This document shows, piece by piece, positions 37,291-37,392 of a stretch of DNA of 64,000 bases. Positions within the stretch are counted from its first letter, which is position 1; every line of letters starts with the position of its first letter. This DNA comes from Kappaphycus alvarezii (Eukaryota > Rhodophyta > Florideophyceae > Gigartinales > Solieriaceae), in the NCBI GenBank assembly GCA_002205965.3, contig NADL03000624.1:496001-560000 (forward strand), read 5' to 3'. Made by a program: the position numbers and the translations under genes. The notes under the pieces were generated by a model that saw nothing but the letters and a program-made list of their open reading frames with translations, searched no databases and was not told the origin of the DNA.

Positions 37291-37392
37291 GCTCGAACCA
37301 AGCAACTCGCTCGTTCGAGCACTGGCTGTCGTGCCCCTCGGCAAAATATCGACACCAAGGCAGCTCGGGTCGCCCGCTGCGCAAAGAGACCC
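37291..37392 (+). other. Histone H3 N-terminal tail look-alike
   Basis: Frame 1 reads [12 protein letters not shown], then C-R-A-P-R, then QNID, then TKAAR, then V-A-R-C. Aligned without gaps to the conserved H3 tail (known from the family), residues 1-5, 7, 8, 10-12, 15-17 and 22-26 match, 18 of 26. K4 and K23 are kept. K9 is S, K14 is R, K18 is Q and K27 is V. The codon before Ala is ACG, one change from ATG. The sequence upstream (37190-37285) is pyrimidine-rich like a 5' leader. A TAG ends the frame at 37399. No histone fold follows. Confidence 0.8.

Follow-up and report, generated by a model that had tools for sequence, protein, structure and literature searches.

Plant Ty3/Gypsy retrotransposons such as Grande (gene23), RIRE2 and Retand are described to carry additional genes that run antisense to gag-pol and occupy the interval from pol to the 3' LTR (PMC7264820, PMC11963269). 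Some of these aORF-3R proteins are described in the same reports to localise to the nucleus; as for what such antisense genes do in plant LTR retrotransposons, no function is said to be known (PMC7264820). A likeness to the tail of histone H3 is described for EZHIP, a non-histone protein with an H3-like stretch that carries Met at the place of lysine 27 (PMC6513997), as well as for the parasite proteins NS1 of influenza virus and ORF8 of SARS-CoV-2, which resemble a motif of the H3 N-terminal tail (PMC10208167). The VANC protein of Arabidopsis VANDAL is an example of a mobile-element protein countering host silencing (PMC5735166). Antisense genes in LTR elements, viral mimicry of H3 motifs and EZHIP are already known; a literature search of partial coverage returned no transposon protein that carries a whole, selected H3 tail as its natural N-terminus.

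Here we describe such a tail in a stretch of 64,000 nucleotides from the red alga Kappaphycus alvarezii (hereafter the window, C620:496001-560000), compared with the genome assembly of 336,021,096 bases in 884 contigs. The assembly shows 3 matches to the phycobilisome family, in line with a red alga. The H3-like segment of the window represents, in decayed form, the N-terminus of an additional gene, antisense to gag-pol, in a lineage of Ty3/Gypsy retrotransposons. The encoded protein of about 420 residues consists of a copy of the H3 tail starting with Met-Ala and a conserved body in which a Cys, a His and an Asp hardly vary.

An H3 tail at the start of an antisense retrotransposon gene

The first-pass annotation of the window had reported an ungapped match of 18 of 26 residues to H3 1-26, preceded by an ACG codon and followed by a stop, and this description holds (Table 1). 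K9 is replaced by Ser, and the residue following the matched stretch, at the place of K27, is Val. When searched against 177,635 distinct PDB sequences, the 36-residue reading retrieves H3 with E=1.5e-5, which rules out a chance match; in Pfam, this short query gives no match. The tail had also been placed one frame off and 25 bp upstream of a neighbouring ORF. There is indeed an in-frame ATG at 37416, yet the frame of that ORF is open from 37095 across the tail to 37859, with its family-specific part starting at 37389, right after the tail. The window copy of the gene is dead, as it shows ACG for ATG, a frame slip after the tail, stops and a body in three pieces.

Relatives of the segment are numerous. 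Positions 37100-37420 used as a DNA query give 35 genome matches, the window itself counted, and a search with the whole H3 protein gives at least 86 matches with 150 of 399 candidates scored. Among the H3 matches listed, 76 of 86 start at residue 1 or 2, reach no further than residue 98 and lack the core, the other 10 belonging to five H3 genes or two tail-less H3-like loci; the DNA of 20 of the 76 tail-only matches (among L031-L050) was read by eye. The proteins of families C and B, as defined below, match 137 and 131 stretches, respectively, some of which are pieces of one copy. Most copies read are broken. Relatives open with MARTKQ, and in many loci, for example L005, L043, L045 and L046, the tail ATG is in frame with the protein neighbouring the tail in the window; in L098 and L099 tail and body form one continuous open frame of 462 and 421 residues. 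The suggestion that in intact relatives the tail is the N-terminus of a transposon-linked protein is borne out by these copies. About 420 residues is the better estimate of its length, because the L098 frame departs from the shared C-terminus near its end. Profile A2 finds H3 in the PDB with E=1.5e-10 over chain residues 1-43, and its matches include no histone fold core: among the 60 chains listed, the H3 match ends at or before residue 64 and usually at or before residue 46. A sub-threshold match to the histone-like PF00808 was seen at L051:5036-5542 (26 residues, E=0.15, 12.8 bits, cut-off 21.4 bits). No relatives were found among viral contigs, for which one scan gave 28 pattern matches.

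Eight families (A-H) can be told apart by tail and body, comprising 24, 6, 24, 3, 1, 6, 9 and 1 copies, so that E and H are represented by one copy each. Duplicates (L001, L028-L030, L051-L055, L075, L003) were removed from this set, L041, L076 and L092 were placed in no family, and L050 and L010 were reassigned to B and A, respectively. The body tree, which has 22 rows and a midpoint root, separates A, B, E and H from C, D and F in one split with support 99/98; D, E, H and one A row sit on long branches, whose joins may be false according to the program's warning, and family G, available as 300-bp pieces only, was left out. As the tail is present on both sides of this split, we argue for a single old capture.

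The body retains Cys245, His337 and Asp350 (numbered as in L099) in 12/13, 13/13 and 12/13 of the A3 rows that have letters there (17 rows in total; families A, B, C and H), in the order of papain-like thiol peptidases. Counted over the rows of alignment A2 that span the column, gaps included, Cys is found in 26/30 and Asp in 16/20, and a Cys stands at the equivalent place also in families D, E and F. In families A, B and C, the copies that were followed as far as the C-terminus have a basic run at their end, which may be read as a nuclear signal; by eye, a basic run is also visible near the end of body fragment 3 in the window. A Pfam scan of eight proteins or pieces gave two matches, both below the cut-offs and neither of them TRP28 (PF04195), and searches for a body domain in NCBIfam (A3 members) and with profiles in the PDB returned nothing over cut-off, one PDB chain reaching E=0.35.

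The setting of the gene is seen best in L051, L052 and L053, where the tail gene lies on the plus strand and gag-pol (gag by eye) on the minus strand. The tail gene is located between integrase/pol and one LTR, its ATG 319, 349 and 480 bp inside the LTR in L051, L052 and L053, respectively, and LTR pairs enclose gag-pol together with the antisense gene in all three elements with the far flank fetched. Pfam detects RVT_1 and RNase H in these elements; in L052:4976-6916:-, it finds RVT_1, RT_RNaseH and Integrase_H2C2, in that order. The window aligns with L053, which has RVT_1 at L053:7436-7777:-, over 37286-42131 at 82 % DNA identity. A self-comparison for pieces longer than 120 bp revealed no LTRs for the window's family-A copy, and none were found in 10 kb of its twin copy L054. 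A second element in the window, of family-C type, has LTRs that are 81 % alike and 5-bp target repeats.

Table 1. Positions of the tail gene, its protein body and the surrounding elements (positions without a prefix are those of the window).
Feature	Position	Strand	Basis or remark
Tandem repeat array upstream of tail gene, unit about 42 bp	36142-36668	none	also in twin copy L054
ACG where most relatives show the tail-gene ATG start	37288-37290	+	sequence, comparison of copies
H3-tail mimic, 26 codons, family A, decayed copy	37291-37368	+	H3 alignment, PDB search
End of tail reading, out of frame with body in window copy, to TAG 37399-37401	37369-37401	+	
Protein body fragment 1, profile positions 35-190	37389-37859	+	E=5.6e-52
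Protein body fragment 2 with conserved Cys, profile positions 193-295	37863-38186	+	E=1.4e-38
Protein body fragment 3 with conserved His and Asp	38200-38580	+	profile positions 317-343, E=4.6e-6; residues by eye
Ty3/Gypsy pol of the window's own element	38600-42131 (start approximate)	-	likeness to L053
Second Ty3/Gypsy element, family-C type	25148-30996	-	LTRs about 25148-25429 and 30678-30996, target repeats TGTAT
Remnant family-C tail-gene start, MAHMKQNA	25762-25785	+	remainder of gene absent
LTR pair, L051 element	L051:3364-3682 with L097:413-731		319 bp, 95.9 %
LTR pair, L052 element	L052:2475-2652 with L096:1122-1319		about 200 bp, 73.7 %
LTR pair, L053 element	L053:3354-3521 with L095:45-212		168 bp, 97.0 %

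Positions 33273-43284 of the window align with C619:1275657-1285656 at 86.7 % across all 10,000 bases fetched, which marks an old duplicated block in the window. A complete-looking LTR element at 42275-49347 (LTRs 88.6 % alike, target repeat AAGCG on both sides) lies next to where the alignment of the window's family-A element ends, and C619 shares its LTR and near part at least. Elsewhere, the window contains a trypsin-like reading frame at 20780-21466 on the minus strand (PF00089, E=1.5e-12) and a direct repeat of 461 bp (62550-63010 and 63540-64000, 99.8 % identical) near ORFs resembling, by eye, a non-LTR reverse transcriptase.

Selection on the tail and the residues that change

The first-pass annotation had raised the question of purifying selection on the tail, and such selection keeps the tail in both families in which it was measured. 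For tail codons 2-28, pN/pS is 0.43 in family A (codon bootstrap 0.33-0.56) and 0.29 in family C (0.21-0.40), given as uncorrected Nei-Gojobori proportions with gapped codons and stops excluded and intervals that ignore relatedness. With body values of 0.49 in A and 0.34 in C, the constraint on the tail is much like that on the body. The family-A set consists of 18 of the other 34 DNA matches and the window, 19 places in all, with L099 as reference and L003, the twin of L002, omitted; the family-C set comprises 19 of the best 20 places in the family-C protein search, the twentieth, L056, serving as reference. Copies were taken without regard to the intactness of their tails, the tail being part of both queries. 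Between families, pS ranges from 0.59 to 0.89 and pN from 0.14 to 0.41, the latter biased low because those copies had been chosen for intact tails. Overlap with pol does not explain the constraint, since the tail gene of L051 ends before the pol frames start.

The lysines of the H3 tail are those that cells mark for switching genes on or off. It is at these sites that the families depart most from H3: counting family-by-site states, the six lysines are kept in 26/48 and all other sites in 141/168 (Fisher 5e-5; K18 of family B, where three copies have Lys and three have Glu, is scored as kept), a comparison in which the families are non-independent and the copies had been admitted for their similarity to typed references. 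Thirteen residues, A1, T3, Q5, A7, S10, T11, G12, G13, P16, R17, A24, A25 and R26, are kept by family majority in 8/8 families. Arg8 is kept in four of the eight, and residues 19 and 22 are as variable as the lysines (3/8 each).

The window copy had been annotated as keeping K4 while losing K9 and K27. This is true of its family A, in whose selection set of 20 copies K4 is found in 17/20 and K9 and K27 in 0/20 each (17 Leu and 17 Val, respectively), and by majority also of B and E, but of no more than these three of eight families. As a rule for the whole lineage it is ruled out by families F and G, where the pattern is reversed, K4 being lost (mostly to Asn) and K9 and K27 kept. K4 is kept by majority in five of the eight families. 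Family C (selection set, 20 copies) has K4 in 20/20, K9 in 0/20 (19 Arg) and K27 in 15/20. In family B the sequence at residue 27 reads AARM (K27M), with Met in 5/6 copies, and the single copy of E shows K9M together with R8S. The single copy of H reads AARI (K27I) with K4R and retains K9 next to R8A; D retains K9 next to R8N and shows K27R. The R8-K9 pair is intact by majority in F only. The codons suggest that lysines may have been replaced on a path from Lys via Met to Leu or Val.

The host genome contains at least five H3 genes, as found with 150 of 399 candidates scored. Two of the five, L024 and L025, are one base short between tail and core in comparison with L022 (389 vs 390 nt); the missing base may be due to assembly errors or mark pseudogenes, and the assembly may hold indels. 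Two further H3-like loci (L026-L029; C660:372234-372670 and C609:1093448-1093887) match H3 from residue 35 or 36 only, in two pieces each with 58-68 % identity, and are possibly centromeric H3 genes with an intron.

Possible roles of the tail

With moderate confidence, and judging from sequence, we read the antisense-gene protein with its selected H3 tail as a nuclear decoy for host enzymes or readers of the H3 tail. The protein would enter the nucleus, and removal of the initiator Met would expose a free Ala1 as in real H3. The tail would then be offered to the host proteins, with the thirteen residues kept in every family as the scaffold that these enzymes and readers would hold, and the changed lysines would turn it into a decoy that cannot be modified. 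Replacement of Lys by Met or Ile, as seen in B (K27M), E (K9M) and H (K27I), may even block SET methyltransferases in the manner of oncohistones and EZHIP. What the element would gain is a weaker silencing of itself. Putative targets exist in the host: the genome has 43 SET matches, of which five were fetched and two compared with the PDB, one being EZH2-like (L102, E=3.7e-59) and one Set1/MLL-like (L104, E=2e-33). A search for Pre-SET gave no match in the genome, but control queries matched nowhere either.

Met or Ile at H3 residue 27 is described to inhibit PRC2, as EZHIP does, with a preference for Arg at the -1 position, whereas an H3-EZHIP fusion with Lys or Arg leaves PRC2 uninhibited (PMC6513997). 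Similarly, K9M is described to trap Clr4, with K9R having little effect on silencing in yeast (PMC5030085). As Met and Ile block and K9R barely acts, B, E and H may be active inhibitors, and A and C are better read as possible unmodifiable decoys; the Leu and Val of family A are absent from the blocking residues given in the parts of both reports available to us, which counts against inhibition by A. A single mechanism is perhaps unfit for all families, given the reversed pattern of F and G, with K4 lost and K9 and K27 kept. A more pointed version, which we put forward tentatively, would be an independently evolved oncohistone: the host H3 tail would have been copied and its lysines made SET-blocking or unmodifiable family by family (K27M, K27I, K9M, K9L, K27V, K9R), poisoning various chromatin writers of the host in a silencing arms race.

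Rather than a decoy, the tail may be a chromatin tether that binds host H3 readers and delivers the element's DNA or its integration complex to particular chromatin, the lysine changes tuning the reader. A1 and T3 are part of what H3K4 readers hold, and both are kept in 8/8 families, with K4 kept in 5/8; the C-terminal basic runs of A, B and C and the differences between families in K4 versus K9/K27, as expected of different targets, fit a tether as well. We nevertheless consider it unlikely, as the protein is separate from the integrase and encoded on the other strand, and as tethering by itself leaves the greater change at lysines than at other sites unexplained. Even less probable appears a body acting as a thiol peptidase-like enzyme on H3 tails, with its own N-terminal tail as a substrate-like regulator: the papain-like order of the conserved Cys, His and Asp described above speaks for it, and against it stands that the profile searches of Pfam, NCBIfam and the PDB found no peptidase match.

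With its many Arg and Lys residues, the tail could in principle be no H3 mimic but an unspecific basic N-terminus that serves nucleic-acid binding or import. The residues kept in all families include the non-basic A1, T3, Q5, A7, S10, T11, G12, G13, P16, A24 and A25, and lysines are often lost, which is the opposite of what a need for charge would produce and makes this reading quite improbable. The simpler alternative named in the annotation, a captured and decaying piece of a host H3 gene, agrees with the decayed state of the window copy itself. It is to be rejected almost with certainty, in view of the purifying selection in both families tested (A and C), the occurrence of the tail in all eight families and on both sides of the body-tree split, and the distance of its DNA from the host H3 genes, to which it is 0.61-0.67 identical while these are 0.88 identical among themselves.

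Relation to known systems

If the decoy reading is true, selection on a mobile element has reached the same lysine-to-methionine trick that is known from EZHIP and from the histones of human cancers. In that case the differing tails of the families would also be a natural set of H3 variants that reveals which residues are needed by host proteins. Because the tail is a recognisable, selected and putatively chromatin-aimed module, the role of the antisense gene is directly testable with peptides.

In its position antisense to gag-pol between pol and an LTR, the algal gene resembles the plant aORF-3R genes. It differs in its tail, as a word search of the main text of PMC7264820 and PMC11963269 finds no mention of histones; Retand proteins, for their part, bear TRP28 (PF04195), which the Pfam scan did not find here. 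VANC shares with the algal protein the countering of host silencing, a role only inferred here, but VANC binds to motifs in DNA and leads to a loss of DNA methylation, with no histone tail mentioned in the part of the report available (PMC5735166). The DNA targets of VANC are often tandem repeats as well (PMC5735166), a possible parallel to the array upstream of the tail gene in the window. Family B resembles EZHIP in that its AARM likewise places Met at position 27 in a non-histone protein, yet EZHIP is a mammalian cell protein with its conserved 12 residues in the C-terminus (PMC6513997). The protein of the algal element instead carries about 27 residues of the tail as a free N-terminus. Viral H3-tail mimics such as NS1 and ORF8 are motif-sized and retain a modifiable lysine, whereas here the whole tail is copied at its natural N-terminus and the lysines are changed.
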